Source of the DNA: Crossaster papposus
Lineage: Eukaryota > Echinodermata > Asteroidea > Velatida > Solasteridae
Assembly (NCBI GenBank): GCA_037893245.1
Contig: JBAIAA010000898.1
Location: 124,001-188,000 of the forward strand
Length of the DNA stretch: 64,000 nucleotides
Direction of reading: 5' to 3'
Of the stretch, positions 5,455 through 53,810 are shown in pieces. Within the stretch, counting starts at the first letter, position 1. The number at the start of each line of letters is the position of its first letter. The translations under genes and the position numbers were made by a program. The notes under the pieces were generated by a model that was given only the letters and a program-made list of their open reading frames with translations, was not told where the DNA came from and did not search any database.

Positions 5455-5930
5455 GGAATATAATACCTTGGATTCTATCAAGCTTAGCTAACAGATCAAG
5501 CCGATAGGATTGGGTTGGGTGGCTTGTGTGTAAAGCCTTTGCCTCCAAGTAAGGTTCATAATGTACATATTGAAAGTTTCGTTCACTGTTTGTGTAGATT
5601 TGCTAAACTATACATTTTTGGAAACGTTAGGAAATACTCAACATAAAAACCAATGTTTACATTTGTTTTTAGGTTCTTTTGAAAAAATGGTTCTTTAATG
5701 TGACGTGACACATGAAAAGTCATTGGGTGTCACTTGCATCCTTCGCAATTCAGCACACCAGCTGCGAGTAAGGATGATTAGCCTCCCCAATTATTATTAT
5801 TATATGAATACCGTGGATTCTATCCAGCTTAGCTATTAGGTCAGGCCGGTAGGATTGGGTCGATGGGAATATAAATACCTTGGATTCTATCCAACTTAGC
5901 TAAGGTCAGGCCGATAGGACTGGGTCGATG
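5455..5930 (+). repeat. short satellite unit lacking two sub-repeats (476 bp)
   Basis: The unit is exactly 130 bp shorter than consensus. The sequence from about 5813 starts as the second sub-repeat and leaves through the spacer that normally follows the fourth, so the third sub-repeat and one neighbour are gone. 130 equals 67 plus 63, the two sub-repeat spacings. Recombination between the second and fourth sub-repeats, which share CCGGTAGG, explains it. Confidence 0.93.
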
Positions 5931-7142: not shown

Positions 7143-7757
7143 GGAATATAATACCTTGGATTCTATCAAGCTTAGCTAACAGATCAAGCCGATAGGATTG
7201 GGTTGGGTGGCTTGTGTGTAAAGCCTTTGCCTCCAAGTAAGGTTCATAATGTACATATTGAAAGTTTCGTTCACTGTTTGTGTAGATTTGCTATAAACTA
7301 TACATTTTTGGAAACGTTAGGAAATACTCAACATAAAAACCAATGTTTACATTTGTTTTTAGGTTCTTTTGAAAAAATGGTTCTTTAATGTGACGTGACA
7401 CATGAAAAGTCATTGGGTGTCACTTGCATCCTTCGCAATTCAGCACACCAGCTGCGAGTAAGGATGATTAGCCTCCCCAATTATTATTATTATATGAATA
7501 CCGTGGATTCTATCCAGCTTAGCTATAAAGTATTAGGTCAGGCCGGTAGGATTGGGTCGATGGGGTTATGAAAACCATGGATTCTATCAAGCTTAGCTAT
7601 TAGGTCAGGCCGATAGGATTGGGTCGATTGGGATCTTCCATGGATTCTATCCAGCTTAGCTATTAGGTCAGGCCGGTAGGATTGGGTCGATGGGACTATA
7701 AATACCTTGGATTCTATCCAACTTAGCTAAGGTCAGGCCGATAGGACTGGGTCGATG
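7143..7757 (+). repeat. variant satellite unit with 2-bp and 7-bp insertions (615 bp)
   Basis: It carries an extra TA near 7293 (GCTATAAACTATAC) and an AAAGTAT insertion at 7527-7533 within GCTATTAGG. It also has two substitutions, GGGATCTTCC near 7634 and GGGACTATAAATACC near 7695. The 7-bp insertion recurs in the unit starting at 27146. It is the most changed unit in the array. Confidence 0.9.
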
Positions 7758-8969
7758 GGAATATAATACCTTGGATTCTATCAAGCTTAGCTAACAGATC
7801 AAGCCGATAGGATTGGGTTGGGTGGCTTGTGTGTAAAGCCTTTGCCTCCAAGTAAGGTTCATAATGTACATATTGAAAGTTTCGTTCACTGTTTGTGTAG
7901 ATTTACTAAACTATACATTTTGGGAAACGTTAGGAAATACTCAACATAAAAACCAATGTTTACATTTGTTTTTAGGTTCTTTTGAAAAAATGGTTCTTTA
8001 ATGTGACGTGACACATGAAAAGTCATTGGGTGTCACTTGCATCCTTCGCAATTCAGCACACCAGCTGCGAGTAAGGATGATTAGCCTCCCCAATTATTAT
8101 TATTATATGAATACCGTGGATTCTATCCAGCTTAGCTATTAGGTCAGGCCGGTAGGATTGGGTCGATGGGGTTATGAAAACCATGGATTCTATCAAGCTT
8201 AGCTATTAGGTCAGGCCGATAGGATTGGGTCGATTGGGATTTTCCATGGATTCTATCCAGCTTAGCTATTAGGTCAGGCCGGTAGGATTGGGTCGATGGG
8301 AATATAAATACCTTGGATTCTATCCAACTTAGCTAAGGTCAGGCCGATAGGACTGGGTCGATGGGAATATAATACCTTGGATTCTATCAAGCTTAGCTAA
8401 CAGATCAAGCCGATAGGATTGGGTTGGGTGGCTTGTGTGTAAAGCCTTTGCCTCCAAGTAAGGTTCATAATGTACATATTGAAAGTTTCGTTCACTGTTT
8501 GTGTAGATTTGCTAAACTATACATTTTTGGAAACGTTAGGAAATACTCAACATAAAAACCAATGTTTACATTTGTTTTTAGGTTCTTTTGAAAAAATGGT
8601 TCTTTAATGTGACGTGACACATGAAAAGTCATTGGGTGTCACTTGCATCCTTCGCAATTCAGCACACCAGCTGCGAGTAAGGATGATTAGCCTCCCCAAT
8701 TATTATTATTATATGAATACCGTGGATTCTATCCAGCTTAGCTATTAGGTCAGGCCGGTAGGATTGGGTCGATGGGGTTATGAAAACCATGGATTCTATC
8801 AAGCTTAGCTATTAGGTCAGGCCGATAGGATTGGGTCGATTGGGATTTTCCATGGATTCTATCCAGCTTAGCTATTAGGTCAGGCCGGTAGGATTGGGTC
8901 GATGGGAATATAAATACCTTGGATTCTATCCAACTTAGCTAAGGTCAGGCCGATAGGACTGGGTCGATG

Positions 8970-9573
8970 GGAATATAATACCTTGGATTCTATCAAGCTT
9001 AGCTAACAGATCAAGCCGATAGGATTGGGTTGGGTGGCTTGTGTGTAAAGCCTTTGCCTCCAAGTAAGGTTCATAATGTACATATTGAAAGTTTCGTTCA
9101 CTGTTTGTGTAGATTTGCTAAACTATACATTTTTGGAAACGTTAGGAAATACTCAACATAAAAACCAATGTTTACATTTGTTTTTAGGTTCTTTTGAAAA
9201 AATGGTTCTTTAATGTGACGTGACACATGAAAAGTCATTGGGTGTCACTTGCATCCTTCGCAATTCAGCACACCAGCTGCGAGTAAGGATGATTAGCCTC
9301 CCCAATTATTATTATTATATGAATACCGTGGATTCTATCCAGCTTAGCTATTAGGTCAGGCCGGTAGGATTGGGTCGATGGGGTTATGAAAACCATGGAT
9401 TCTATCAAGCTTAGCTATTAGGTCAGGCCGATAGGATTGGGTCGATTTGGATTTTCCATGGATTCTATCCAGCTTAGCTATTAGGTCAGGCCGGTAGGAT
9501 TGGGTCGATGGGAATAAATACCTTGGATTCTATCCAACTTAGCTAAGGTCAGGCCGATAGGACTGGGTCGATG
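8970..9573 (+). repeat. variant satellite unit, 2-bp deletion (604 bp)
   Basis: It has GTCGATTTGG instead of GTCGATTGGG near 9443, and GGGAATAAATACC instead of GGGAATATAAATACC near 9511. The second change removes the TATAAATA motif. The same pair of changes occurs in the unit at 43517. Confidence 0.9.
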
Positions 9574-10179
9574 GGAATATAATACCTTGGATTCTATCAA
9601 GCTTAGCTAACAGATCAAGCCGATAGGATTGGGTTGGGTGGCTTGTGTGTAAAGCCTTTGCCTCCAAGTAAGGTTCATAATGTACATATTGAAAGTTTCG
9701 TTCACTGTTTGTGTAGATTTGCTAAACTATACATTTTTGGAAACGTTAGGAAATACTCAACATAAAAACCAATGTTTACATTTGTTTTTAGGTTCTTTTG
9801 AAAAAATGGTTCTTTAATGTGACGTGACACATGAAAAGTCATTGGGTGTCACTTGCATCCTTCGCAATTCAGCACACCAGCTGCGAGTAAGGATGATTAG
9901 CCTCCCCAATTATTATTATTATATGAATACCGTGGATTCTATCCAGCTTAGCTATTAGGTCAGGCCGGTAGGATTGGGTCGATGGGGTTATGAAAACCAT
10001 GGATTCTATCAAGCTTAGCTATTAGGTCAGGCCGATAGGATTGGGTCGATTGGGATTTTCCATGGATTCTATCCAGCTTAGCTATTAGGTCAGGCCGGTA
10101 GGATTGGGTCGATGGGAATATAAATACCTTGGATTCTATCCAACTTAGCTAAGGTCAGGCCGATAGGACTGGGTCGATG

Positions 10180-10783
10180 GGAATATAATACCTTGGATTA
10201 TATCAAGCTTAGCTAACAGATCAAGCCGATAGGATTGGGTTGGGTGGCTTGTGTGTAAAGCCTTTGCCTCCAAGTAAGGATCATAATGTACATATTGAAA
10301 GTTTCGTTCACTGTTTGTGTAGATTTGCTAAACTATACATTTTTGGAAACGTTAGGAAATACTCAACATAAAAACCAATGTTTACATTTGTTTTTAGGTT
10401 CTTTTGAAAAAATGGTTCTTTAATGTGACGTGACACATGAAAAGTCATTGGGTGTCACTTGCATCCTTCGCAATTCAGCACACCAGCTGCGAGTAAGGAT
10501 GATTAGCCTCCCCAATTATTATTATTATATGAATACCGTGGATTCTATCCAGCTTAGCTATTAGGTCAGGCCGGTAGGATTGGGTCGATGGGGTTATGAA
10601 AACCATGGATTCTATCAAGCTTAGCTATTAGGTCAGGCCGATAGGATTGGGTCGATTGGGATTTTCCATGGATTCTATCCAGCTTAGCTATTAGGTCAGG
10701 CCGGTAGGATTGGGTCGATGGGAATAAATACCTTGGATTCTATCCAACTTAGCTAAGGTCAGGCCGATAGGACTGGGTCGATG
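10180..10783 (+). repeat. variant satellite unit, 2-bp deletion plus two substitutions
   Basis: It carries GGATTATATC near 10196, AAGGATCATAA near 10277 and the GGGAATAAATACC deletion near 10720. The same trio is found in the unit at 44727. Confidence 0.9.
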
Positions 10784-11995
10784 GGAATATAATACCTTGG
10801 ATTCTATCAAGCTTAGCTAACAGATCAAGCCGATAGGATTGGGTTGGGTGGCTTGTGTGTAAAGCCTTTGCCTCCAAGTAAGGTTCATAATGTACATATT
10901 GAAAGTTTCGTTCACTGTTTGTGTAGATTTGCTAAACTATACATTTTTGGAAACGTTAGGAAATACTCAACATAAAAACCAATGTTTACATTTGTTTTTA
11001 GGTTCTTTTGAAAAAATGGTTCTTTAATGTGACGTGACACATGAAAAGTCATTGGGTGTCACTTGCATCCTTCGCAATTCAGCACACCAGCTGCGAGTAA
11101 GGATGATTAGCCTCCCCAATTATTATTATTATATGAATACCGTGGATTCTATCCAGCTTAGCTATTAGGTCAGGCCGGTAGGATTGGGTTGATGGGGTTA
11201 TGAAAACCATGGATTCTATCAAGCTTAGCTATTAGGTCAGGCCGATAGGATTGGGTCGATTGGGATTTTCCATGGATTCTATCCAGCTTAGCTATTAGGT
11301 CAGGCCGGTAGGATTGGGTCGATGGGAATATAAATACCTTGGATTCTATCCAACTTAGCTAAGGTCAGGCCGATAGGACTGGGTCGATGGGAATATAATA
11401 CCTTGGATTCTATCAAGCTTAGCTAACAGATCAAGCCGATAGGATTGGGTTGGGTGGCTTGTGTGTAAAGCCTTTGCCTCCAAGTAAGGTTCATAATGTA
11501 CATATTGAAAGTTTCGTTCACTGTTTGTGTAGATTTGCTAAACTATACATTTTTAGAAACGTTAGGAAATACTCAACATAAAAACCAATGTTTACATTTG
11601 TTTTTAGGTTCTTTTGAAAAAATGGTTCTTTAATGTGACGTGACACATGAAAAGTCATTGGGTGTCACTTGCATCCTTCGCAATTCAGCACACCAGCTGC
11701 GAGTAAGGATGATTAGCCTCCCCAATTATTATTATTATATGAATACCGTGGATTCTATCCAGCTTAGCTATTAGGTCAGGCCGGTAGGATTGGGTCGATG
11801 GGGTTATGAAAACCTTGGATTCTATCAAGCTTAGCTATTAGGTCAGGCCGATAGGATTGGGTCGATTGGGATTTTCCATGGATTCTATCCAGCTTAGCTA
11901 TTAGGTCAGGCCGGTAGGATTGGGTCGATGGGAATATAAATACCTTGGATTCTATCCAACTTAGCTAAGGTCAGGCCGATAGGACTGGGTCGATG

Positions 11996-13204
11996 GGAAT
12001 ATAATACCTTGGATTCTATCAAGCTTAGCTAACAGATCAAGCCGATAGGATTGGGTTGGGTGGCTTGTGTGTAAAGCCTTTGCCTCCAAGTAAGGTTCAT
12101 AATGTACATATTGAAAGTTTCGTTCACTGTTTGTGTAGATTTGCTAAACTATACATTTTTGGAAACGTTAGGAAATACTCAACATAAAAACCAATGTTTA
12201 CATTTGTTTTTAGGTTCTTTTGAAAAAATGGTTCTTTAATGTGACGTGACACATGAAAAGTCATTGGGTGTCACTTGCATCCTTCGCAATTCAGCACACC
12301 AGCTGCGAGTAAGGATGATTAGCCTCCCCAATTATTATTATTATATGAATACCGTGGATTCTATCCAGCTTAGCTATTAGGTCAGGCCGGTAGGATTGGG
12401 TCGATGGGGTTATGAAAACCATGGATTTCATCAAGCTTAGCTATTAGGTCAGGCCGACAGGATTGGGTCGATTGGGATTTTCCATGGATTCTATCCAGCT
12501 TAGCTATTAGGTCAGGCCGGTAGGATTGGGTCGATGGGAATATAAATACCTTGGATTCTATCCAACTTAGCTAAGGTCAGGCCGATAGGACTGGGTCGAT
12601 GGGAATATAATACCTTGGATTCTATCAAGCTTAGCTAACAGATCAAGCCGATAGGATTGGGTTGGGTGGCTTGTGTGTAAAGCCTTTGCCTCCAAGTAAG
12701 GTTCATAATGTACATATTGAAAGTTTCGTTCACGGTTTGTGTAGATTTGCTAAACTATACATTTTTGGAAACGTTAGGAAATACTCAACATAAAAACCAA
12801 TGTTTACATTTGTTTTTAGGTTCTTTTGAAAAAATGGTTCTTTAATGTGACGTGACACATGAAAAGTCATTGGGTGTCACTTGCATCCTTCGCAATTCAG
12901 CACACCAGCTAGTAAGGATGATTAGCCTCCCCAATTATTATTATTATATGAATACCGTGGATTCTATCCAGCTTAGCTATTAGGTCAGGCCGGTAGGATT
13001 GGGTCGATGGGGTTATGAAAACCATGGATTCTATCAAGCTTAGCTATTAGGTCAGGCCGATAGGATTGGGTCGATTGGGATTTTCCATGGATTCTATCCA
13101 GCTTAGCTATTAGGTCAGGCCGGTAGGATTGGGTCGATGGGAATATAAATACCTTGGATTCTATCCAACTTAGCTAAGGTCAGGCCGATAGGACTGGGTC
13201 GATG
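11996..13204 (+). repeat. two-unit variant pair (copy 1)
   Basis: The first unit has GGATTTCATC and GCCGACAGG near 12423-12460. The second has CACGGTTTGTG near 12735 and a 3-bp loss in CAGCTAGTAAGG near 12910 (normal CAGCTGCGAGTAAGG). The pair recurs at 21692 and at 46543. Confidence 0.9.
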
Positions 13205-16200
13205 GGAATATAATACCTTGGATTCTATCAAGCTTAGCTAACAGATCAAGCCGATAGGATTGGGTTGGGTGGCTTGTGTGTAAAGCCTTTGCCTCCAAGT
13301 AAGGTTCATAATGTACATATTGAAAGTTTCGTTCACTGTTTGTGTAGATTTGCTAAACTATACATTTTTGGAAACGTTAGGAAATACTCAACATAAAAAC
13401 CAATGTTTACATTTGTTTTTAGGTTCTTTTGAAAAAATGGTTCTTTAATGTGACGTGACACATGAAAAGTCATTGGGTGTCACTTGCATCCTTCGCAATT
13501 CAGCACACCAGCTGCGAGTAAGGATGATTAGCCTCCCCAATTATTATTATTATATGAATACCGTGGATTCTATCCAGCTTAGCTATTAGGTCAGGCCGGT
13601 AGGATTGGGTCGATGGGGTTATGAAAACCATGGATTCTATCAAGCTTAGCTATTAGGTCAGGCCGATAGGATTGGGTCGATTGGGATTTTCCATGGATTC
13701 TATCCAGCTTAGCTATTAGGTCAGGCCGGTAGGATTGGGTCGATGGGAATATAAATACCTTGGATTCTATCCAACTTAGCTAAGGTCAGGCCGATAGGAC
13801 TGGGTCGATGGGAATATAATACCTTGGATTCTATCAAGCTTAGCTAACAGATCAAGCCGATAGGATTGGGTTGGGTGGCTTGTGTGTAAAGCCTTTGCCT
13901 CCAAGTAAGGTTCATAATGTACATATTGAAAGTTTCGTTCACTGTTTGTGTAGATTTGCTAAACTATACATTTTTGGAAACGTTAGGAAATACTCAACAT
14001 AAAAACCAATGTTTACATTTGTTTTTAGGTTCTTTTGAAAAAATGGTTCTTTAATGTGACGTGACACATGAAAAGTCATTGGGTGTCACTTGCATCCTTC
14101 GCAATTCAGCACACCAGCTGCGAGTAAGGATGATTAGCCTCCCCAATTATTATTATTATATGAATACCGTGGATTCTATCCAGCTTAGCTATTAGGTCAG
14201 GCCGGTAGGATTGGGTCGATGGGGTTATGAAAACCATGGATTCTATCAAGCTTAGCTATTAGGTCAGGCCGATAGGATTGGGTCGATTGGGATTTTCCAT
14301 GGATTCTATCCAGCTTAGCTATTAGGTCAGGCCGGTAGGATTGGGTCGATGGGAATATAAATACCTTGGATTCTATCCAACTTAGCTAAGGTCAGGCCGA
14401 TAGGACTGGGTCGATGGGAATATAATACCTTGGATTCTATCAAGCTTAGCTAACAGATCAAGCCGATAGGATTGGGTTGGGTGGCTTGTGTGTAAAGCCT
14501 TTGCCTCCAAGTAAGGTTCATAATGTACATATTGAAAGTTTCGTTCACTGTTTGTGTAGATTTGCTAAACTATACATTTTTGGAAACGTTAGGAAATACT
14601 CAACATAAAAACCAATGTTTACATTTGTTTTTAGGTTCTTTTGAAAAAATGGTTCTTTAATGTGACGTGACACATGAAAAGTCATTGGGTGTCACTTGCA
14701 TCCTTCGCAATTCAGCACACCAGCTGCGAGTAAGGATGATTAGCCTCCCCAATTATTATTATTATATGAATACCGTGGATTCTATCCAGCTTAGCTATTA
14801 GGTCAGGCCGGTAGGATTGGGTCGATGGGGTTATGAAAACCATGGATTCTATCAAGCTTAGCTATTAGGTCAGGCCGATAGGATTGGGTCGATTGGGATT
14901 TTCCATGGATTCTATCCAGCTTAGCTATTAGGTCAGGCCGGTAGGATTGGGTCGATGGGAATATAAATACCTTGGATTCTATCCAACTTAGCTAAGGTCA
15001 GGCCGATAGGACTGGGTCGATGGGAATATAATACCTTGGATTCTATCAAGCTTAGCTAACAGATCAAGCCGATAGGATTGGGTTGGGTGGCTTGTGTGTA
15101 AAGCCTTTGCCTCCAAGTAAGGTTCATAATGTACATATTGAAAGTTTCGTTCACTGTTTGTGTAGATTTGCTAAACTATACATTTTTGGAAACGTTAGGA
15201 AATACTCAACATAAAAACCAATGTTTACATTTGTTTTTAGGTTCTTTTGAAAAAATGGTTCTTTAATGTGACGTGACACATGAAAAGTCATTGGGTGTCA
15301 CTTGCATCCTTCGCAATTCAGCACACCAGCTGCGAGTAAGGATGATTAGCCTCCCCAATTATTATTATTATATGAATACCGTGGATTCTATCCAGCTTAG
15401 CTATTAGGTCAGGCCGGTAGGATTGGGTCGATGGGGTTATGAAAACCATGGATTCTATCAAGCTTAGCTATTAGGTCAGGCCGATAGGATTGGGTCGATT
15501 GGGATTTTCCATGGATTCTATCCAGCTTAGCTATTAGGTCAGGCCGGTAGGATTGGGTCGATGGGAATATAAATACCTTGGATTCTATCCAACTTAGCTA
15601 AGGTCAGGCCGATAGGACTGGGTCGATGGGAATATAATACCTTGGATTCTATCAAGCTTAGCTAACAGATCAAGCCGATAGGTTGGGTTGGGTGGCTTGT
15701 GTGTAAAGCCTTTGCCTCCAAGTAAGGTTCATAATGTACATATTGAAAGTTTCGTTCACTGTTTGTGTAGATTTGCTAAACTATACATTTTTGGAAACGT
15801 TAGGAAATACTCAACATAAAAACCAATGTTTACATTTGTTTTTAGGTTCTTTTGAAAAAATGGTTCTTTAATGTGACGTGACACATGAAAAGTCATTGGG
15901 TGTCACTTGCATCCTTCGCAATTCAGCACACCAGCTGCGAGTAAGGATGATTAGCCTCCCCAATTATTATTATTATATGAATACCGTGGATTCTATCCAG
16001 CTTAGCTATTAGGTCAGGCCGGTAGGATTGGGTCGATGGGGTTATGAAAACCATGGATTCTATCAAGCTTAGCTATTAGGTCAGGCCGATAGGATTGGGT
16101 CGATTGGGATTTTCCATGGATTCTATCCAGCTTAGCTATTAGGTCAGGCCGGTAGGATTGGGTCGATGGGAATATAAATACCTTGGATTCTATCCAACTT

Positions 16201-18657
16201 AGCTAAGGTCAGGCCGATAGGACTGGGTCGATGGGAATATAATACCTTGGATTCTATCAAGCTTAGCTAACAGATCAAGCCGATAGGATTGGGTTGGGTG
16301 GCTTGTGTGTAAAGCCTTTGCCTCCAAGTAAGGTTCATAATGTACATATTGAAAGTTTCGTTCACTGTTTGTGTAGATTTGCTAAACTATACATTTTTGG
16401 AAACGTTAGGAAATACTCAACATAAAAACCAATGTTTACATTTGTTTTTAGGTTCTTTTGAAAAAATGGTTCTTTAATGTGACGTGACACATGAAAAGTC
16501 ATTGGGTGTCACTTGCATCCTTCGCAATTCAGCACACCAGCTGCGAGTAAGGATGATTAGCCTCCCCAATTATTATTATTATATGAATACCGTGGATTCT
16601 ATCCAGCTTAGCTATTAGGTCAGGCCGGTAGGATTGGGTCGATGGGGTTATGAAAACCATGGATTCTATCAAGCTTAGCTATTAGGTCAGGCCGATAGGA
16701 TTGGGTCGATTGGGATTTTCCATGGATTCTATCCAGCTTAGCTATTAGGTCAGGCCGGTAGGATTGGGTCGATGGGAATATAAATACCTTGGATTCTATC
16801 CAACTTAGCTAAGGTCAGGCCGATAGGACTGGGTCGATGGGAATATAATACCTTGGATTCTATCAAGCTTAGCTAACAGATCAAGCCGATAGGATTGGGT
16901 TGGGTGGCTTGTGTGTAAAGCCTTTGCCTCCAAGTAAGGTTCATAATGTACATATTGAAAGTTTCGTTCACTGTTTGTGTAGATTTGCTAAACTATACAT
17001 TTTTGGAAACGTTAGGAAATACTCAACATAAAAACCAATGTTTACATTTGTTTTTAGGTTCTTTTGAAAAAATGGTTCTTTAATGTGACGTGACACATGA
17101 AAAGTCATTGGGTGTCACTTGCATCCTTCGCAATTCAGCACACCAGCTGCGAGTAAGGATGATTAGCCTCCCCAATTATTATTATTATATGAATACCGTG
17201 GATTCTATCCAGCTTAGCTATTAGGTCAGGCCGGTAGGATTGGGTCGATGGGGTTATGAAAACCATGGATTCTATCAAGCTTAGCTATTAGGTCAGGCCG
17301 ATAGGATTGGGTCGATTGGGATTTTCCATGGATTCTATCCAGCTTAGCTATTAGGTCAGGCCGGTAGGATTGGGTCGATGGGAATATAAATACCTTGGAT
17401 TCTATCCAACTTAGCTAAGGTCAGGCCGATAGGACTGGGTCGATGGGAATATAATACCTTGGATTCTATCAAGCTTAGCTAACAGATCAAGCCGATAGGA
17501 TTGGGTTGGGTGGCTTGTGTGTAAAGCCTTTGCCTCCAAGTAAGGTTCATAATGTACATATTGAAAGTTTCGTTCACTGTTTGTGTAGATTTGCTAAACT
17601 ATACATTTTTGGAAACGTTAGGAAATACTCAACATAAAAACCAATGTTTACATTTGTTTTTAGGTTCTTTTGAAAAAATGGTTCTTTAATGTGACGTGAC
17701 ACATGAAAAGTCATTGGGTGTCACTTGCATCCTTCGCAATTCAGCACACCAGCTGCGAGTAAGGATGATTAGCCTCCCCAATTATTATTATTATATGAAT
17801 ACCGTGGATTCTATCCAGCTTAGCTATTAGGTCAGGCCGGTAGGATTGGGTCGATGGGGTTATGAAAACCATGGATTCTATCAAGCTTAGCTATTAGGTC
17901 AGGCCGATAGGATTGGGTCGATTGGGATTTTCCATGGATTCTATCCAGCTTAGCTATTAGGTCAGGCCGGTAGGATTGGGTCGATGGGAATATAAATACC
18001 TTGGATTCTATCCAACTTAGCTAAGGTCAGGCCGATAGGACTGGGTCGATGGGAATATAATACCTTGGATTCTATCAAGCTTAGCTAACAGATCAAGCCG
18101 ATAGGATTGGGTTGGGTGGCTTGTGTGTAAAGCCTTTGCCTCCAAGTAAGGTTCATAATGTACATATTGAAAGTTTCGTTCACTGTTTGTGTAGATTTGC
18201 TAAACTATACATTTTGGGAAACGTTAGGAAATACTCAACATAAAAACCAATGTTTACATTTGTTTTTAGGTTCTTTTGAAAAAATGGTTCTTTAATGTGA
18301 CGTGACACATGAAAAGTCATTGGGTGTCACTTGCATCCTTCGCAATTCAGCACACCAGCTGCGAGTAAGGATGATTAGCCTCCCCAATTATTATTATTAT
18401 ATGAATACCGTGGATTCTATCCAGCTTAGCTATTAGGTCAGGCCGGTAGGATTGGGTCGATGGGGTTATGAAAACCATGGATTCTATCAAGCTTAGCTAT
18501 TAGGTCAGGCCGATAGGATTGGGTCGATTGGGATTTTCCATGGATTCTATCCAGCTTAGCTATTAGGTCAGGCCGGTAGGATTGGGTCGATGGGAATATA
18601 AATACCTTGGATTCTATCCAACTTAGCTAAGGTCAGGCCGATAGGACTGGGTCGATG

Positions 18658-19267
18658 GGAATATAATACCTTGGATTCTATCAAGCTTAGCTAACAGATC
18701 AAGCCGATAGGATTGGGTTGGGTGGCTTGTGTGTAAAGCCTTTGCCTCCAAGTAAGGTTCATAATGTACATATTGAAAGTTTCGTTCACTGTTTGTGTAG
18801 ATTTGCTAAACTATACATTTTTGGAAACGTTAGGAAATACTCAACATAAAAACCAATGTTTACATTTGTTTTTAGGTTCTTTTGAAAAAATGGTTCCTTA
18901 ATGTGACGTGACACATGAAAAGTCATTGGGTGTCACTTGCATCCTTCGCAATTCAGCACACCAGCTGCGAGTAAGGATGATTAGCCTCCCCAATTATTAT
19001 TATTATATGAATACCGTGGATTCTATCCAGCTTAGCTATTAGGTCAGGCCGGTAGGATTGGGTCGATGGGGTTATGAAAACCATGGATTCTATCAAACTT
19101 AGCTACCTATTAGGTCAGGCCGATAGGATTGGGTCGATTGGGATTTTCCATGGATTCTATCCAGCTTAGCTATTAGGTCAGGCCGGTAGGATTGGGTCGA
19201 TGGGAATATAAATACCTTGGATTCTATCCAACTTAGCTAAGGTCAGGCCGATAGGACTGGGTCGATG
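18658..19267 (+). repeat. variant satellite unit with 4-bp insertion (copy 1, 610 bp)
   Basis: It has GGTTCCTTAATG (T to C) near 18895 and CAAACTTAGCTACCTATTAGG, a CCTA insertion at about 19106-19109 plus a G to A change that removes the AAGCTT site. Its left neighbour carries the CATTTTGGG marker. The same two-unit arrangement appears at 35029/35635 and 53205/53811. Confidence 0.9.
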
Positions 19268-21691
19268 GGAATATAATACCTTGGATTCTATCAAGCTTAG
19301 CTAACAGATCAAGCCGATAGGATTGGGTTGGGTGGCTTGTGTGTAAAGCCTTTGCCTCCAAGTAAGGTTCATAATGTACATATTGAAAGTTTCGTTCACT
19401 GTTTGTGTAGATTTGCTAAACTATACATTTTTGGAAACGTTAGGAAATACTCAACATAAAAACCAATGTTTACATTTGTTTTTAGGTTCTTTTGAAAAAA
19501 TGGTTCTTTAATGTGACGTGACACATGAAAAGTCATTGGGTGTCACTTGCATCCTTCGCAATTCAGCACACCAGCTGCGAGTAAGGATGATTAGCCTCCC
19601 CAATTATTATTATTATATGAATACCGTGGATTCTATCCAGCTTAGCTATTAGGTCAGGCCGGTAGGATTGGGTCGATGGGGTTATGAAAACCATGGATTC
19701 TATCAAGCTTAGCTATTAGGTCAGGCCGATAGGATTGGGTCGATTGGGATTTTCCATGGATTCTATCCAGCTTAGCTATTAGGTCAGGCCGGTAGGATTG
19801 GGTCGATGGGAATATAAATACCTTGGATTCTATCCAACTTAGCTAAGGTCAGGCCGATAGGACTGGGTCGATGGGAATATAATACCTTGGATTCTATCAA
19901 GCTTAGCTAACAGATCAAGCCGATAGGATTGGGTTGGGTGGCTTGTGTGTAAAGCCTTTGCCTCCAAGTAAGGTTCATAATGTACATATTGAAAGTTTCG
20001 TTCACTGTTTGTGTAGATTTGCTAAACTATACATTTTGGGAAACGTTAGGAAATACTCAACATAAAAACCAATGTTTACATTTGTTTTTAGGTTCTTTTG
20101 AAAAAATGGTTCTTTAATGTGACGTGACACATGAAAAGTCATTGGGTGTCACTTGCATCCTTCGCAATTCAGCACACCAGCTGCGAGTAAGGATGATTAG
20201 CCTCCCCAATTATTATTATTATATGAATACCGTGGATTCTATCCAGCTTAGCTATTAGGTCAGGCCGGTAGGATTGGGTCGATGGGGTTATGAAAACCAT
20301 GGATTCTATCAAGCTTAGCTATTAGGTCAGGCCGATAGGATTGGGTCGATTGGGATTTTCCATGGATTCTATCCAGCTTAGCTATTAGGTCAGGCCGGTA
20401 GGATTGGGTCGATGGGAATATAAATACCTTGGATTCTATCCAACTTAGCTAAGGTCAGGCCGATAGGACTGGGTCGATGGGAATATAATACCTTGGATTC
20501 TATCAAGCTTAGCTAACAGATCAAGCCGATAGGATTGGGTTGGGTGGCTTGTGTGTAAAGCCTTTGCCTCCAAGTAAGGTTCATAATGTACATATTGAAA
20601 GTTTCGTTCACTGTTTGTGTAGATTTGCTAAACTATACATTTTTGGAAACGTTAGGAAATACTCAACATAAAAACCAATGTTTACATTTGTTTTTAGGTT
20701 CTTTTGAAAAAATGGTTCTTTAATGTGACGTGACACATGAAAAGTCATTGGGTGTCACTTGCATCCTTCGCAATTCAGCACACCAGCTGCGAGTAAGGAT
20801 GATTAGCCTCCCCAATTATTATTATTATATGAATACCGTGGATTCTATCCAGCTTAGCTATTAGGTCAGGCCGGTAGGATTGGGTCGATGGGGTTATGAA
20901 AACCATGGATTCTATCAAGCTTAGCTATTAGGTCAGGCCGATAGGATTGGGTCGATTGGGATTTTCCATGGATTCTATCCAGCTTAGCTATTAGGTCAGG
21001 CCGGTAGGATTGGGTCGATGGGAATATAAATACCTTGGATTCTATCCAACTTAGCTAAGGTCAGGCCGATAGGACTGGGTCGATGGGAATATAATACCTT
21101 GGATTCTATCAAGCTTAGCTAACAGATCAAGCCGATAGGATTGGGTTGGGTGGCTTGTGTGTAAAGCCTTTGCCTCCAAGTAAGGTTCATAATGTACATA
21201 TTGAAAGTTTCGTTCACTGTTTGTGTAGATTTGCTAAACTATACATTTTTGGAAACGTTAGGAAATACTCAACATAAAAACCAATGTTTACATTTGTTTT
21301 TAGGTTCTTTTGAAAAAATGGTTCTTTAATGTGACGTGACACATGAAAAGTCATTGGGTGTCACTTGCATCCTTCGCAATTCAGCACACCAGCTGCGAGT
21401 AAGGATGATTAGCCTCCCCAATTATTATTATTATATGAATACCGTGGATTCTATCCAGCTTAGCTATTAGGTCAGGCCGGTAGGATTGGGTCGATGGGGT
21501 TATGAAAACCATGGATTCTATCAAGCTTAGCTATTAGGTCAGGCCGATAGGATTGGGTCGATTGGGATTTTCCATGGATTCTATCCAGCTTAGCTATTAG
21601 GTCAGGCCGGTAGGATTGGGTCGATGGGAATATAAATACCTTGGATTCTATCCAACTTAGCTAAGGTCAGGCCGATAGGACTGGGTCGATG

Positions 21692-22903
21692 GGAATATAA
21701 TACCTTGGATTCTATCAAGCTTAGCTAACAGATCAAGCCGATAGGATTGGGTTGGGTGGCTTGTGTGTAAAGCCTTTGCCTCCAAGTAAGGTTCATAATG
21801 TACATATTGAAAGTTTCGTTCACTGTTTGTGTAGATTTGCTAAACTATACATTTTTGGAAACGTTAGGAAATACTCAACATAAAAACCAATGTTTACATT
21901 TGTTTTTAGGTTCTTTTGAAAAAATGGTTCTTTAATGTGACGTGACACATGAAAAGTCATTGGGTGTCACTTGCATCCTTCGCAATTCAGCACACCAGCT
22001 GCGAGTAAGGATGATTAGCCTCCCCAATTATTATTATTATTATATGAATACCGTGGATTCTATCCAGCTTAGCTATTAGGTCAGGCCGGTAGGATTGGGT
22101 CGATGGGGTTATGAAAACCATGGATTTCATCAAGCTTAGCTATTAGGTCAGGCCGACAGGATTGGGTCGATTGGGATTTTCCATGGATTCTATCCAGCTT
22201 AGCTATTAGGTCAGGCCGGTAGGATTGGGTCGATGGGAATATAAATACCTTGGATTCTATCCAACTTAGCTAAGGTCAGGCCGATAGGACTGGGTCGATG
22301 GGAATATAATACCTTGGATTCTATCAAGCTTAGCTAACAGATCAAGCCGATAGGATTGGGTTGGGTGGCTTGTGTGTAAAGCCTTTGCCTCCAAGTAAGG
22401 TTCATAATGTACATATTGAAAGTTTCGTTCACGGTTTGTGTAGATTTGCTAAACTATACATTTTTGGAAACGTTAGGAAATACTCAACATAAAAACCAAT
22501 GTTTACATTTGTTTTTAGGTTCTTTTGAAAAAATGGTTCTTTAATGTGACGTGACACATGAAAAGTCATTGGGTGTCACTTGCATCCTTCGCAATTCAGC
22601 ACACCAGCTAGTAAGGATGATTAGCCTCCCCAATTATTATTATTATATGAATACCGTGGATTCTATCCAGCTTAGCTATTAGGTCAGGCCGGTAGGATTG
22701 GGTCGATGGGGTTATGAAAACCATGGATTCTATCAAGCTTAGCTATTAGGTCAGGCCGATAGGATTGGGTCGATTGGGATTTTCCATGGATTCTATCCAG
22801 CTTAGCTATTAGGTCAGGCCGGTAGGATTGGGTCGATGGGAATATAAATACCTTGGATTCTATCCAACTTAGCTAAGGTCAGGCCGATAGGACTGGGTCG
22901 ATG
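21692..22903 (+). repeat. two-unit variant pair (copy 2) with extra ATT
   Basis: It has the same GGATTTCATC/GCCGACAGG and CACGGTTTGTG/CAGCTAGTAAGG markers as the pair at 11996. In addition it has one extra ATT in the trinucleotide run near 22029-22043, giving 609 plus 603 bp. The ATT expansion occurred after this copy separated from the others. Confidence 0.9.
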
Positions 22904-25900
22904 GGAATATAATACCTTGGATTCTATCAAGCTTAGCTAACAGATCAAGCCGATAGGATTGGGTTGGGTGGCTTGTGTGTAAAGCCTTTGCCTCCAAGTA
23001 AGGTTCATAATGTACATATTGAAAGTTTCGTTCACTGTTTGTGTAGATTTGCTAAACTATACATTTTTGGAAACGTTAGGAAATACTCAACATAAAAACC
23101 AATGTTTACATTTGTTTTTAGGTTCTTTTGAAAAAATGGTTCTTTAATGTGACGTGACACATGAAAAGTCATTGGGTGTCACTTGCATCCTTCGCAATTC
23201 AGCACACCAGCTGCGAGTAAGGATGATTAGCCTCCCCAATTATTATTATTATATGAATACCGTGGATTCTATCCAGCTTAGCTATTAGGTCAGGCCGGTA
23301 GGATTGGGTCGATGGGGTTATGAAAACCATGGATTCTATCAAGCTTAGCTATTAGGTCAGGCCGATAGGATTGGGTCGATTGGGATTTTCCATGGATTCT
23401 ATCCAGCTTAGCTATTAGGTCAGGCCGGTAGGATTGGGTCGATGGGAATATAAATACCTTGGATTCTATCCAACTTAGCTAAGGTCAGGCCGATAGGACT
23501 GGGTCGATGGGAATATAATACCTTGGATTCTATCAAGCTTAGCTAACAGATCAAGCCGATAGGATTGGGTTGGGTGGCTTGTGTGTAAAGCCTTTGCCTC
23601 CAAGTAAGGTTCATAATGTACATATTGAAAGTTTCGTTCACTGTTTGTGTAGATTTGCTAAACTATACATTTTTGGAAACGTTAGGAAATACTCAACATA
23701 AAAACCAATGTTTACATTTGTTTTTAGGTTCTTTTGAAAAAATGGTTCTTTAATGTGACGTGACACATGAAAAGTCATTGGGTGTCACTTGCATCCTTCG
23801 CAATTCAGCACACCAGCTGCGAGTAAGGATGATTAGCCTCCCCAATTATTATTATTATATGAATACCGTGGATTCTATCCAGCTTAGCTATTAGGTCAGG
23901 CCGGTAGGATTGGGTCGATGGGGTTATGAAAACCATGGATTCTATCAAGCTTAGCTATTAGGTCAGGCCGATAGGATTGGGTCGATTGGGATTTTCCATG
24001 GATTCTATCCAGCTTAGCTATTAGGTCAGGCCGGTAGGATTGGGTCGATGGGAATATAAATACCTTGGATTCTATCCAACTTAGCTAAGGTCAGGCCGAT
24101 AGGACTGGGTCGATGGGAATATAATACCTTGGATTCTATCAAGCTTAGCTAACAGATCAAGCCGATAGGATTGGGTTGGGTGGCTTGTGTGTAAAGCCTT
24201 TGCCTCCAAGTAAGGTTCATAATGTACATATTGAAAGTTTCGTTCACTGTTTGTGTAGATTTGCTAAACTATACATTTTTGGAAACGTTAGGAAATACTC
24301 AACATAAAAACCAATGTTTACATTTGTTTTTAGGTTCTTTTGAAAAAATGGTTCTTTAATGTGACGTGACACATGAAAAGTCATTGGGTGTCACTTGCAT
24401 CCTTCGCAATTCAGCACACCAGCTGCGAGTAAGGATGATTAGCCTCCCCAATTATTATTATTATATGAATACCGTGGATTCTATCCAGCTTAGCTATTAG
24501 GTCAGGCCGGTAGGATTGGGTCGATGGGGTTATGAAAACCATGGATTCTATCAAGCTTAGCTATTAGGTCAGGCCGATAGGATTGGGTCGATTGGGATTT
24601 TCCATGGATTCTATCCAGCTTAGCTATTAGGTCAGGCCGGTAGGATTGGGTCGATGGGAATATAAATACCTTGGATTCTATCCAACTTAGCTAAGGTCAG
24701 GCCGATAGGACTGGGTCGATGGGAATATAATACCTTGGATTCTATCAAGCTTAGCTAACAGATCAAGCCGATAGGATTGGGTTGGGTGGCTTGTGTGTAA
24801 AGCCTTTGCCTCCAAGTAAGGTTCATAATGTACATATTGAAAGTTTCGTTCACTGTTTGTGTAGATTTGCTAAACTATACATTTTTGGAAACGTTAGGAA
24901 ATACTCAACATAAAAACCAATGTTTACATTTGTTTTTAGGTTCTTTTGAAAAAATGGTTCTTTAATGTGACGTGACACATGAAAAGTCATTGGGTGTCAC
25001 TTGCATCCTTCGCAATTCAGCACACCAGCTGCGAGTAAGGATGATTAGCCTCCCCAATTATTATTATTATATGAATACCGTGGATTCTATCCAGCTTAGC
25101 TATTAGGTCAGGCCGGTAGGATTGGGTCGATGGGGTTATGAAAACCATGGATTCTATTAAGCTTAGCTATTAGGTCAGGCCGATAGGATTGGGTCGATTG
25201 GGATTTTCCATGGATTCTATCCAGCTTAGCTATTAGGTCAGGCCGGTAGGATTGGGTCGATGGGAATATAAATACCTTGGATTCTATCCAACTTAGCTAA
25301 GGTCAGGCCGATAGGACTGGGTCGATGGGAATATAATACCTTGGATTCTATCAAGCTTAGCTAACAGATCAAGCCGATAGGATTGGGTTGGGTGGCTTGT
25401 GTGTAAAGCCTTTGCCTCCAAGTAAGGTTCATAATGTACATATTGAAAGTTTCGTTCACTGTTTGTGTAGATTTGCTAAACTATACATTTTTGGAAACGT
25501 TAGGAAATACTCAACATAAAAACCAATGTTTACATTTGTTTTTAGGTTCTTTTGAAAAAATGGTTCTTTAATGTGACGTGACACATGAAAAGTCATTGGG
25601 TGTCACTTGCATCCTTCGCAATTCAGCACACCAGCTGCGAGTAAGGATGATTAGCCTCCCCAATTATTATTATTATATGAATACCGTGGATTCTATCCAG
25701 CTTAGCTATTAGGTCAGGCCGGTAGGATTGGGTCGATGGGGTTATGAAAACCATGGATTCTATCAAGCTTAGCTATTAGGTCAGGCCGATAGGATTGGGT
25801 CGATTGGGATTTTCCATGGATTCTATCCAGCTTAGCTATTAGGTCAGGCCGGTAGGATTGGGTCGATGGGAATATAAATACCTTGGATTCTATCCAACTT

Positions 25901-27145
25901 AGCTAAGGTCAGGCCGATAGGACTGGGTCGATGGGAATATAATACCTTGGATTCTATCAAGCTTAGCTAACAGATCAAGCCGATAGGATTGGGTTGGGTG
26001 GCTTGTGTGTAAAGCCTTTGCCTCCAAGTAAGGTTCATAATGTACATATTGAAAGTTTCGTTCACTGTTTGTGTAGATTTGCTAAACTATACATTTTTGG
26101 AAACGTTAGGAAATACTCAACATAAAAACCAATGTTTACATTTGTTTTTAGGTTCTTTTGAAAAAATGGTTCTTTAATGTGACGTGACACATGAAAAGTC
26201 ATTGGGTGTCACTTGCATCCTTCGCAATTCAGCACACCAGCTGCGAGTAAGGATGATTAGCCTCCCCAATTATTATTATTATATGAATACCGTGGATTCT
26301 ATCCAGCTTAGCTATTAGGTCAGGCCGGTAGGATTGGGTCGATGGGGTTATGAAAACCATGGATTCTATCAAGCTTAGCTATTAGGTCAGGCCGATAGGA
26401 TTGGGTCGATTGGGATTTTCCATGGATTCTATCCAGCTTAGCTATTAGGTCAGGCCGGTAGGATTGGGTCGATGGGAATATAAATACCTTGGATTCTATC
26501 CAACTTAGCTAAGGTCAGGCCGATAGGACTGGGTCGATGGGAATATAATACCTTGGATTCTATCAAGCTTAGCTAACAGATCAAGCCGATAGGATTGGGT
26601 TGGGTGGCTTGTGTGTAAAGCCTTTGCCTCCAAGTAAGGTTCATAATGTACATATTGAAAGTTTCGTTCACTGTTTGTGTAGATTTGCTAAACTATACAT
26701 TTTTGGAAACGTTAGGAAATACTCAACATAAAAACCAATGTTTACATTTGTTTTTAGGTTCTTTTGAAAAAATGGTTCTTTAATGTGACGTGACACATGA
26801 AAAGTCATTGGGTGTCACTTGCATCCTTCGCAATTCAGCACACCAGCTGCGAGTAAGGATGATTAGCCTCCCCAATTATTATTATTATATGAATACCGTG
26901 GATTCTATCCAGCTTAGCTATTAGGTCAGGCCGGTAGGATTGGGTCGATGGGGTTATGAAAACCATGGATTCTATCAAGCTTAGCTATTAGGTCAGGCCG
27001 ATAGGATTGGGTCGATTGGGATTTTCCATGGATTCTATCCAGCTTAGCTATTAGGTCAGGCCGGTAGGATTGGGTCGATGGGAATATAAATACCTTGGAT
27101 TCTATCCAACTTAGCTAAGGTCAGGCCGATAGGACTGGGTCGATG

Positions 27146-27758
27146 GGAATATAATACCTTGGATTCTATCAAGCTTAGCTAACAGATCAAGCCGATAGGA
27201 TTGGGTTGGGTGGCTTGTGTGTAAAGCCTTTGCCTCCAAGTAAGGTTCATAATGTACATATTGAAAGTTTCGTTCACTGTTTGTGTAGATTTGCTAAACT
27301 ATACATTTTGGGAAACGTTAGGAAATACTCAACATAAAAACCAATGTTTACATTTGTTTTTAGGTTCTTTTGAAAAAATGGTTCTTTAATGTGACGTGAC
27401 ACATGAAAAGTCATTGGGTGTCACTTGCATCCTTCGCAATTCAGCACACCAGCTGCGAGTAAGGATGATTAGCCTCCCCAATTATTATTATTATATGAAT
27501 ACCGTGGATTCTATCCAGCTTAGCTATAAAGTATTAGGTCAGGCCGGTAGGATTGGGTCGATGGGGTTATGAAAACCATGGATTCTATCAAGCTTAGCTA
27601 TTAGGTCAGGCCGATAGGATTGGGTCGATTGGGATTTTCCATGGATTCTATCCAGCTTAGCTATTAGGTCAGGCCGGTAGGATTGGGTCGATGGGAATAT
27701 AAATACCTTGGATTCTATCCAACTTAGCTAAGGTCAGGCCGATAGGACTGGGTCGATG
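27146..27758 (+). repeat. variant satellite unit with 7-bp insertion (613 bp)
   Basis: It shares the AAAGTAT insertion (27528-27534) with the unit at 7143, but not that unit's 2-bp insertion or its substitutions. It also carries the CATTTTGGG variant at about 27306-27312. The mix of markers implies exchange between units or stepwise gain. Confidence 0.88.
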
Positions 27759-30700
27759 GGAATATAATACCTTGGATTCTATCAAGCTTAGCTAACAGAT
27801 CAAGCCGATAGGATTGGGTTGGGTGGCTTGTGTGTAAAGCCTTTGCCTCCAAGTAAGGTTCATAATGTACATATTGAAAGTTTCGTTCACTGTTTGTGTA
27901 GATTTGCTAAACTATACATTTTTGGAAACGTTAGGAAATACTCAACATAAAAACCAATGTTTACATTTGTTTTTAGGTTCTTTTGAAAAAATGGTTCTTT
28001 AATGTGACGTGACACATGAAAAGTCATTGGGTGTCACTTGCATCCTTCGCAATTCAGCACACCAGCTGCGAGTAAGGATGATTAGCCTCCCCAATTATTA
28101 TTATTATATGAATACCGTGGATTCTATCCAGCTTAGCTATTAGGTCAGGCCGGTAGGATTGGGTCGATGGGGTTATGAAAACCATGGATTCTATCAAGCT
28201 TAGCTATTAGGTCAGGCCGATAGGATTGGGTCGATTGGGATTTTCCATGGATTCTATCCAGCTTAGCTATTAGGTCAGGCCGGTAGGATTGGGTCGATGG
28301 GAATATAAATACCTTGGATTCTATCCAACTTAGCTAAGGTCAGGCCGATAGGACTGGGTCGATGGGAATATAATACCTTGGATTCTATCAAGCTTAGCTA
28401 ACAGATCAAGCCGATAGGATTGGGTTGGGTGGCTTGTGTGTAAAGCCTTTGCCTCCAAGTAAGGTTCATAATGTACATATTGAAAGTTTCGTTCACTGTT
28501 TGTGTAGATTTGCTAAACTATACATTTTTGGAAACGTTAGGAAATACTCAACATAAAAACCAATGTTTACATTTGTTTTTAGGTTCTTTTGAAAAAATGG
28601 TTCTTTAATGTGACGTGACACATGAAAAGTCATTGGGTGTCACTTGCATCCTTCGCAATTCAGCACACCAGCTGCGAGTAAGGATGATTAGCCTCCCCAA
28701 TTATTATTATTATATGAATACCGTGGATTCTATCCAGCTTAGCTATTAGGTCAGGCCGGTAGGATTGGGTCGATGGGGTTATGAAAACCATGGATTCTAT
28801 CAAGCTTAGCTATTAGGTCAGGCCGATAGGATTGGGTCGATTGGGATTTTCCATGGATTCTATCCAGCTTAGCTATTAGGTCAGGCCGGTAGGATTGGGT
28901 CGATGGGAATATAAATACCTTGGATTCTATCCAACTTAGCTAAGGTCAGGCCGATAGGACTGGGTCGATGGGAATATAATACCTTGGATTCTATCAAGCT
29001 TAGCTAACAGATCAAGCCGATAGGTTGGGTTGGGTGGCTTGTGTGTAAAGCCTTTGCCTCCAAGTAAGGTTCATAATGTACATATTGAAAGTTTCGTTCA
29101 CTGTTTGTGTAGATTTGCTAAACTATACATTTTTGGAAACGTTAGGAAATACTCAACATAAAAACCAATGTTTACATTTGTTTTTAGGTTCTTTTGAAAA
29201 AATGGTTCTTTAATGTGACGTGACACATGAAAAGTCATTGGGTGTCACTTGCATCCTTCGCAATTCAGCACACCAGCTGCGAGTAAGGATGATTAGCCTC
29301 CCCAATTATTATTATTATATGAATACCGTGGATTCTATCCAGCTTAGCTATTAGGTCAGGCCGGTAGGATTGGGTCGATGGGGTTATGAAAACCATGGAT
29401 TCTATCAAGCTTAGCTATTAGGTCAGGCCGATAGGATTGGGTCGATTGGGATTTTCCATGGATTCTATCCAGCTTAGCTATTAGGTCAGGCCGGTAGGAT
29501 TGGGTCGATGGGAATATAAATACCTTGGATTCTATCCAACTTAGCTAAGGTCAGGCCGATAGGACTGGGTCGATGGGAATATAATACCTTGGATTCTATC
29601 AAGCTTAGCTAACAGATCAAGCCGATAGGATTGGGTTGGGTGGCTTGTGTGTAAAGCCTTTGCCTCCAAGTAAGGTTCATAATGTACATATTGAAAGTTT
29701 CGTTCACTGTTTGTGTAGATTTGCTAAACTATACATTTTGGGAAACGTTAGGAAATACTCAACATAAAAACCAATGTTTACATTTGTTTTTAGGTTCTTT
29801 TGAAAAAATGGTTCTTTAATGTGACGTGACACATGAAAAGTCATTGGGTGTCACTTGCATCCTTCGCAATTCAGCACACCAGCTGCGAGTAAGGATGATT
29901 AGCCTCCCCAATTATTATTATTATATGAATACCGTGGATTCTATCCAGCTTAGCTATTAGGTCAGGCCGGTAGGATTGGGTCGATGGGGTTATGAAAACC
30001 ATGGATTCTATCAAGCTTAGCTATTAGGTCAGGCCGATAGGATTGGGTCGATTGGGATTTTCCATGGATTCTATCCAGCTTAGCTATTAGGTCAGGCCGG
30101 TAGGATTGGGTCGATGGGAATATAAATACCTTGGATTCTATCCAACTTAGCTAAGGTCAGGCCGATAGGACTGGGTCGATGGGAATATAATACCTTGGAT
30201 TCTATCAAGCTTAGCTAACAGATCAAGCCGATAGGATTGGGTTGGGTGGCTTGTGTGTAAAGCCTTTGCCTCCAAGTAAGGTTCATAATGTACATATTGA
30301 AAGTTTCGTTCACTGTTTGTGTAGATTTGCTAAACTATACATTTTGGGAAACGTTAGGAAATACTCAACATAAAAACCAATGTTTACATTTGTTTTTAGG
30401 TTCTTTTGAAAAAATGGTTCTTTAATGTGACGTGACACATGAAAAGTCATTGGGTGTCACTTGCATCCTTCGCAATTCAGCACACCAGCTGCGAGTAAGG
30501 ATGATTAGCCTCCCCAATTATTATTATTATATGAATACCGTGGATTCTATCCAGCTTAGCTATTAGGTCAGGCCGGTAGGATTGGGTCGATGGGGTTATG
30601 AAAACCATGGATTCTATCAAGCTTAGCTATTAGGTCAGGCCGATAGGATTGGGTCGATTGGGATTTTCCATGGATTCTATCCAGCTTAGCTATTAGGTCA

Positions 30701-33700
30701 GGCCGGTAGGATTGGGTCGATGGGAATATAAATACCTTGGATTCTATCCAACTTAGCTAAGGTCAGGCCGATAGGACTGGGTCGATGGGAATATAATACC
30801 TTGGATTCTATCAAGCTTAGCTAACAGATCAAGCCGATAGAATTGGGTTGGGTGGCTTGTGTGTAAAGCCTTTGCCTCCAAGTAAGGTTCATAATGTACA
30901 TATTGAAAGTTTCGTTCACTGTTTGTGTAGATTTGCTAAACTATACATTTTTGGAAACGTTAGGAAATACTCAACATAAAAACCAATGTTTACATTTGTT
31001 TTTAGGTTCTTTTGAAAAAATGGTTCTTTAATGTGACGTGACACATGAAAAGTCATTGGGTGTCACTTGCATCCTTCGCAATTCAGCACACCAGCTGCGA
31101 GTAAGGATGATTAGCCTCCCCAATTATTATTATTATATGAATACCGTGGATTCTATCCAGCTTAGCTATTAGGTCAGGCCGGTAGGATTGGGTCGATGGG
31201 GTTATGAAAACCATGGATTCTATCAAGCTTAGCTATTAGGTCAGGCCGATAGGATTGGGTCGATTGGGATTTTCCATGGATTCTATCCAGCTTAGCTATT
31301 AGGTCAGGCCGGTAGGATTGGGTCGATGGGAATATAAATACCTTGGATTCTATCCAACTTAGCTAAGGTCAGGCCGATAGGACTGGGTCGATGGGAATAT
31401 AATACCTTGGATTCTATCAAGCTTAGCTAACAGATCAAGCCGATAGGATTGGGTTGGGTGGCTTGTGTGTAAAGCCTTTGCCTCCAAGTAAGGTTCATAA
31501 TGTACATATTGAAAGTTTCGTTCACTGTTTGTGTAGATTTGCTAAACTATACATTTTTGGAAACGTTAGGAAATACTCAACATAAAAACCAATGTTTACA
31601 TTTGTTTTTAGGTTCTTTTGAAAAAATGGTTCTTTAATGTGACGTGACACATGAAAAGTCATTGGGTGTCACTTGCATCCTTCGCAATTCAGCACACCAG
31701 CTGCGAGTAAGGATGATTAGCCTCCCCAATTATTATTATTATATGAATACCGTGGATTCTATCCAGCTTAGCTATTAGGTCAGGCCGGTAGGATTGGGTC
31801 GATGGGGTTATGAAAACCATGGATTCTATCAAGCTTAGCTATTAGGTCAGGCCGATAGGATTGGGTCGATTGGGATTTTCCATGGATTCTATCCAGCTTA
31901 GCTATTAGGTCAGGCCGGTAGGATTGGGTCGATGGGAATATAAATACCTTGGATTCTATCCAACTTAGCTAAGGTCAGGCCGATAGGACTGGGTCGATGG
32001 GAATATAATACCTTGGATTCTATCAAGCTTAGCTAACAGATCAAGCCGATAGGTTGGGTTGGGTGGCTTGTGTGTAAAGCCTTTGCCTCCAAGTAAGGTT
32101 CATAATGTACATATTGAAAGTTTCGTTCACTGTTTGTGTAGATTTGCTAAACTATACATTTTTGGAAACGTTAGGAAATACTCAACATAAAAACCAATGT
32201 TTACATTTGTTTTTAGGTTCTTTTGAAAAAATGGTTCTTTAATGTGACGTGACACATGAAAAGTCATTGGGTGTCACTTGCATCCTTCGCAATTCAGCAC
32301 ACCAGCTGCGAGTAAGGATGATTAGCCTCCCCAATTATTATTATTATATGAATACCGTGGATTCTATCCAGCTTAGCTATTAGGTCAGGCCGGTAGGATT
32401 GGGTCGATGGGGTTATGAAAACCATGGATTCTATCAAGCTTAGCTATTAGGTCAGGCCGATAGGATTGGGTCGATTGGGATTTTCCATGGATTCTATCCA
32501 GCTTAGCTATTAGGTCAGGCCGGTAGGATTGGGTCGATGGGAATATAAATACCTTGGATTCTATCCAACTTAGCTAAGGTCAGGCCGATAGGACTGGGTC
32601 GATGGGAATATAATACCTTGGATTCTATCAAGCTTAGCTAACAGATCAAGCCGATAGGATTGGGTTGGGTGGCTTGTGTGTAAAGCCTTTGCCTCCAAGT
32701 AAGGTTCATAATGTACATATTGAAAGTTTCGTTCACTGTTTGTGTAGATTTGCTAAACTATACATTTTTGGAAACGTTAGGAAATACTCAACATAAAAAC
32801 CAATGTTTACATTTGTTTTTAGGTTCTTTTGAAAAAATGGTTCTTTAATGTGACGTGACACATGAAAAGTCATTGGGTGTCACTTGCATCCTTCGCAATT
32901 CAGCACACCAGCTGCGAGTAAGGATGATTAGCCTCCCCAATTATTATTATTATATGAATACCGTGGATTCTATCCAGCTTAGCTATTAGGTCAGGCCGGT
33001 AGGATTGGGTCGATGGGGTTATGAAAACCATGGATTCTATCAAGCTTAGCTATTAGGTCAGGCCGATAGGATTGGGTCGATTGGGATTTTCCATGGATTC
33101 TATCCAGCTTAGCTATTAGGTCAGGCCGGTAGGATTGGGTCGATGGGAATATAAATACCTTGGATTCTATCCAACTTAGCTAAGGTCAGGCCGATAGGAC
33201 TGGGTCGATGGGAATATAATACCTTGGATTCTATCAAGCTTAGCTAACAGATCAAGCCGATAGGATTGGGTTGGGTGGCTTGTGTGTAAAGCCTTTGCCT
33301 CCAAGTAAGGTTCATAATGTACATATTGAAAGTTTCGTTCACTGTTTGTGTAGATTTGCTAAACTATACATTTTTGGAAACGTTAGGAAATACTCAACAT
33401 AAAAACCAATGTTTACATTTGTTTTTAGGTTCTTTTGAAAAAATGGTTCTTTAATGTGACGTGACACATGAAAAGTCATTGGGTGTCACTTGCATCCTTC
33501 GCAATTCAGCACACCAGCTGCGAGTAAGGATGATTAGCCTCCCCAATTATTATTATTATATGAATACCGTGGATTCTATCCAGCTTAGCTATTAGGTCAG
33601 GCCGGTAGGATTGGGTCGATGGGGTTATGAAAACCATGGATTCTATCAAGCTTAGCTATTAGGTCAGGCCGATAGGATTGGGTCGATTGGGATTTTCCAT

Positions 33701-40950: not shown

Positions 40951-40982
40951 GAATCCATGGAAAATCCCAATCGACCCAATCC
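40951..40982 (-). repeat. 32-bp micro-inversion inside satellite unit 68
   Basis: The normal run from GGATTGGGTCGATTGGG through TTTTCCATGGATTC is replaced by its exact reverse complement (GAATCCATGGAAAATCCC then AATCGACCCAATCC), so unit length is unchanged at 606. In the consensus the segment is flanked by GATA on the left and TATC on the right, which are complementary to each other, so breakpoints can slide by a few bases. No other unit shows it. Confidence 0.95.
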
Positions 40983-53700: not shown

Positions 53701-53810
53701 TATCCAGCTTAGCTATTAGGTCAGGCCGGTAGGATTGGGTCGATGGGAATATAAATACCTTGGATTCTATCCAACTTAGCTAAGGTCAGGCCGATAGGAC
53801 TGGGTCGATG

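Follow-up and report, generated by a model that had tools for sequence, protein, structure and literature searches.

Satellite arrays are thought to be kept uniform by repeated copying, and the copying of satellite units in blocks is already well documented. Dispersed multi-monomer copies similar to those described below are found in Arabidopsis centromeres. Models in which unequal exchange and break-induced replication copy blocks of satellite units are set out in parts of PMC8997354, and the layered expansion of higher-order repeats in human and ape arrays is treated in sections of PMC11062924. For the Drosophila histone array, a landmark-based comparison that considers long-tract conversion or duplication plus deletions is found in part of PMC12400953, and passages of PMC8604942 deal with inversions of spacers between short inverted repeats arising from template switching. 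The event proposed here, in a window of 64,000 nucleotides from the sea star Crossaster papposus (contig JBAIAA010000898.1, positions 124,001 to 188,000), is another instance of block copying.

The satellite array occupies positions 1–62805 of the window, and the coordinates of all features are given on the forward strand. A 19-base anchor occurs 104 times in the window with a spacing of mostly 606 bases, delimiting 104 head-to-tail units of modal length 606 bp; all 104 anchors are in the forward orientation and 0 exact inverted ones were found. When the units were cut at the anchor, 50 of the 104 were identical and 29 distinct sequences were obtained. One of these, type n (four units), is a plain unit that the cutting shortened by one base, because 1 bp is missing before the anchor in the unit that follows (type o); with n counted as plain, the array holds 54/104 plain units and 28 types. 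The last unit is truncated to 507 bp, and the mean pairwise difference between units is 2.4 events (103 units, all pairs). Five related sub-repeats are present per unit, starting at unit positions 16, 361, 428, 491 and 558; four of them measure 63–67 bp, and the fifth continues into an extended repeat-free stretch. As a long head-to-tail array of near-identical non-coding units, the locus was classed as satellite DNA. A coding array was rejected: every one of the six frames is interrupted by 7–18 stop codons per unit, and the longest open stretch is 62 codons. The literature search returned no described satellite with a 606 bp monomer and no match to four short unit strings, and one 34-base pattern of the satellite had no exact match in viral or genome contigs of collections that hold no eukaryote genomes. 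The CENP-B box consensus had 0 exact matches on either strand of the window, an absence that leaves a centromeric array possible.

In a notation in which a dot stands for the commonest unit, a letter for each other type and a space for the break between groups, the array reads.a.bc...de..f g.h.ijklm...no...pq.p.. rm...s...t.noppuno....pqppp...vw.x g.h.ijklm...no....pq.p.. ..yz...AzB., where blocks A and B form groups two and four. The same rare variants follow one another in the same order in both blocks. The sequence-only reading had listed eight pairs of markers offset by 34547 bp, and all of them were found in the units that it named; the match that it had described at an offset of 35153 from 18052 to 19874 was likewise recovered in units 18052 (p), 18658 (q, with a 4-bp insertion) and 19874 (p). 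Positions 7697–18215 equal 42244–52762 exactly over 10,519 bp at the first offset, and 15683–22040 equal 50836–57193 exactly over 6,358 bp at the second. Since these two alignments overlap, the sole difference between the blocks is one 606-bp unit, and no substitution was found when all differences between A and B were listed. The missing unit of A can be placed anywhere within 15683–18215. Defined by identity, block A extends at most over 7697–22040 (14,344 bp), beginning at the end of unit 12, stopping inside unit 36 and including the whole units 13–35; block B extends at most over 42244–57193 (14,950 bp), beginning at the end of unit 69 and stopping inside unit 94, with the whole units 70–93 and thus the additional 606-bp unit. 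The minimum extent, from the first to the last shared variant (bases checked), is 7905–20038 in A, or 12.1 kb, and 42452–55191 in B. The copied segment, for which 8–12 kb had been suggested, therefore measures 12.1–14.3 kb between the shared-variant and identity limits. Outside the blocks the flanks differ: type f (unit 12) precedes A and type x (unit 69) precedes B, and on the right A is followed by r and m (units 36–37) and B by plain units and then y and z.

Eight rare unit types share the 57-unit offset between A and B, and this agreement was compared with shuffles of the unit order, a statistic that ignores the order and spacing of the other unit types, which add to the match. When type p was left out, at most five types fell at one offset in 100,000 shuffles, so that 0/100,000 reached eight, and another seed gave at most six, once. 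When p (ten copies) was included, eight were reached in 2/100,000 shuffles and in 5/100,000 in the other run. Such collinearity of rare variants, beyond chance, would mark A and B as an intra-array block duplication. Within matched units of A and B, 0 event differences were counted, compared with about 56 predicted for 23 random pairs. Single-copy unit types were also absent from the 49 units in or beside A and B and present in 15 of the 54 elsewhere (Fisher test, p = 2.5e-5, with a B range, units 70–95, two units longer than block B); this value was not counted as evidence, since blocks defined by identity could hardly hold singletons.

Between A and B lies a third, diverged copy, block C (21692–38062, units 36–62), which carries r, m, o twice and p-q. 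Here, r corresponds to l plus an ATT insertion, with m directly next to it; o is found in units 48 and 53, and p-q in units 58–59. Block C looks older than the other two because it has singletons of its own (r, s, t and u) and lacks g–k. Its presence explains why the markers, which had been taken as private to the two blocks, are so only in part: some are, but m (three units), o (four) and q (three) occur outside the two places as well. An exact match between C and B covers 30842–36408 at an offset of 18176 (5,567 bp). The run n-o-p-p-u-n-o at 28365–32604 (units 47–53), in which the 1-bp-loss unit recurs five units apart within block C, is read as a smaller local duplication inside C. Four plain units separate o and p in both B and C, and three in A. 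The four-unit spacing common to B and C points to A as the block that most likely lost one unit after the copying, rather than a gain in B; independent gain or loss of plain units is a conceivable alternative. The one-unit change after the duplication, previously left as a gain or a loss, is thus real, and its direction can be refined to a likely loss from A.

Three related multi-unit segments in the order A, C, B would also be expected if they were units of a higher-order repeat array. This seems very improbable, since no constant period was found in the window: the l/r/l series is spaced by 16 and then 41 units, and the q series by 28 and then 30. Moreover, C has diverged, and A does not adjoin B.

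A stretch of 10.5 kb is within the reach of long accurate reads. The possibility that the second copy is an assembly artefact, either a false duplication or joined haplotypes, has in its favour that it predicts zero substitutions, as seen over 14.3 kb. It is nevertheless unlikely: A and B have different flanks to the left and to the right, unlike alleles, one unit differs between A and B, the longest exact match of 10.5 kb lies within the span of such reads, and the diverged copy C suggests that block copying happened earlier too. The different flanks, the one-unit difference and the older copy are not what a plain false duplication or joined haplotypes should give. The sequence-only reading had called the marker series direct evidence of copying within the array; the copying of a multi-unit block is indeed the best reading, but its directness hinges on a correct assembly.

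Taken together, the sequence makes it probable that a run of units of 12.1–14.3 kb was copied elsewhere in the same array, in the genome itself, by out-of-register homologous recombination, and that A has since lost one unit. The uniform head-to-tail units and the offsets near multiples of 606 fit what homologous recombination predicts. About 20 satellite units would have been copied as one block to a second site about 34.5 kb away, recently, as the absence of substitutions between A and B would indicate, and the loss of a single unit from A would have come later. A may have given rise to B, or B to A.

The tandem duplicate produced by a single unequal crossover has the same length as the offset. 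The two blocks do not have this geometry, as the copy measures at most 14.3 kb and the offset is 34.5 kb. Because the copy falls short of the offset and B is not followed by the same sequence as A, either a crossover with a later deletion or one bounded copy tract is called for, and the two routes would stand about even. In the first, a sister-chromatid exchange displaced by 57 units would have duplicated units 13–69 in tandem, and a deletion would then have taken out the greater part of this second copy, on the right-hand side of B. The standard model is unequal exchange (Smith 1976, as summarised in PMC8997354), and this route may well apply, with a likelihood a little short of even. It requires two events, however, and to the right of B the expected r and m are replaced by plain units and then y and z, with no C-type variant left. 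The second route, a one-step long-tract gene conversion or break-induced replication of 20–24 units, from A into the place of B or the reverse, deserves equal, slightly less than even, credence. A bounded tract directly gives a copy shorter than its offset, and both long-tract conversion above 15 kb and a break-induced replication route to satellite duplication are discussed in parts of PMC12400953 and PMC8997354. On the other side, no junction signature is visible; such a signature would be hidden because both ends lie in sequence that is identical among units.

Gain and loss of tandem blocks was also simulated on arrays of about 104 units, and the runs were scored for strings of units that recur and include eight or more rare types. 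Such strings appeared in 0/2,400 runs with steps of at most 1, 2 or 5 units, in 9/800 with steps of up to 10, in 109/800 with up to 25 and in 268/800 with up to 60. Non-adjacent repeats, whose appearance with large steps favours the route by unequal exchange, were obtained in 0/2,400 runs with steps of five units or fewer, 2/800 (up to 10), 27/800 (25) and 120/800 (60). Scoring at nine rare types, with n counted, agreed with these values: 0/1,800 for steps of at most five units, 1/600 (10), 59/600 (25) and 214/600 (60), and a cruder size control gave 0/540 for steps of at most five. Gains and losses of five units or fewer would thus be insufficient, in this model, to generate the A/B repeat, and steps on the scale of blocks would be capable of it. 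Five settings gave a modal share of 0.46–0.56, close to the observed 0.52 (54/104), and non-adjacent cases were found in 0/200 runs in four of them and in 7/200 in one, a rarity that speaks against the proposed copying. No simulated setting fitted the modal share and the 28 types together, and the array as a whole is therefore not reproduced by simple exchange. As a guess, its half-identical and singleton-rich make-up might need a further process, such as a recent expansion or a conversion that favours the commonest unit.

Smaller rearrangements were also found in the array. Unit 3 (1819–2424) contains a conversion-like patch in which seven changes within 27 bp equal the sub-repeat sequence 130 bp downstream; the tract measures 27–89 bp and the length of the unit is unchanged. 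Unit 9 (5455–5930) has lost exactly 130 bp, or two sub-repeats, from the common unit, and the start of the deletion is free over unit positions 360–414. As homology-linked changes in the same array as the block copy, this patch and this deletion would support copying by homologous recombination. In unit 67, an exact inversion of 30–40 bp (40947–40986) lies between the inverted pentamers GATAG and CTATC, and the rest equals the common unit. A conversion patch, as the 24 changes in the alignment of this unit might have been read, was rejected once the exact inversion had been shown. The inversion has the look of a template switch. A broader reading, in which the same replication-repair process left footprints at every scale, from the inversion, the patch and the 130-bp deletion through the loss of a single unit to the block, the 12–14 kb tract was copied 34.5 kb away in one step by break-induced replication or long-tract conversion with no crossing-over, and blocks, more than single units, are the main currency of homogenisation, is speculative and rather doubtful.

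Additionally, the same 7-bp insertion, TATAAAG, was observed in units 12 (7143–7757) and 45 (27146–27758), which are otherwise different. The common unit lacks this motif on either strand, and the two carriers do not follow the order of blocks A and C. A T to G change at aligned column 168 is shared by 13 units, namely the ten p, both g and t (e.g. 7758, 18052, 27146 and 53205); its occurrence on different backgrounds suggests recurrent mutation or short conversion.

The array stops abruptly in the middle of a unit near 62805, and other DNA lies beyond. A 59-bp palindrome with 27-bp arms and a 5-bp centre is found at 62823–62881, and the flank (62806–64000) contains short tandem repeats rich in GGATAC. 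The product of an open frame from 63461 weakly resembles MADF DNA-binding domains (21.6 bits, with a Pfam cut-off of 22). The 1.2 kb visible may be the end of a transposon or a neighbouring gene. The region 61693–64000 had no blastn match among phages or plasmids in collections that hold no eukaryote genomes, and an Rfam scan of 61000–64000 (about three units and the flank) gave three matches with E values no higher than 1; each of them lies in the flank and scores far below its gathering score.

The size and geometry of a single copying step are seldom so clear as in this array. The step from one block to the other is bounded (12.1–14.3 kb), placed (34.5 kb away) and ordered among other events, C being the older copy and the likely loss of one unit the later change, and the copying route is therefore testable. 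As in the centromeric satellites covered by parts of PMC8997354 and PMC11062924, distinguishable monomers appear to have been copied together and are near-identical beside older, diverged layers. By contrast, the present array contains an exact pair of copies that do not adjoin, plus one old copy, with no constant period, and it may or may not be centromeric. The inversion in unit 67 resembles the template-switch inversions reported in portions of PMC8604942 and PMC8755829, with a spacer inverted between short inverted repeats and base-exact, but it is a single case and lies inside a satellite unit. Finally, the Drosophila histone array, to judge from part of PMC12400953, also has about 100 units in which rare unit types serve as landmarks, and multi-step or long-tract events are discussed for it; its units are coding, measure about 5 kb and were compared between strains, whereas the unit described here is non-coding, measures 606 bp and was followed within one sequence.
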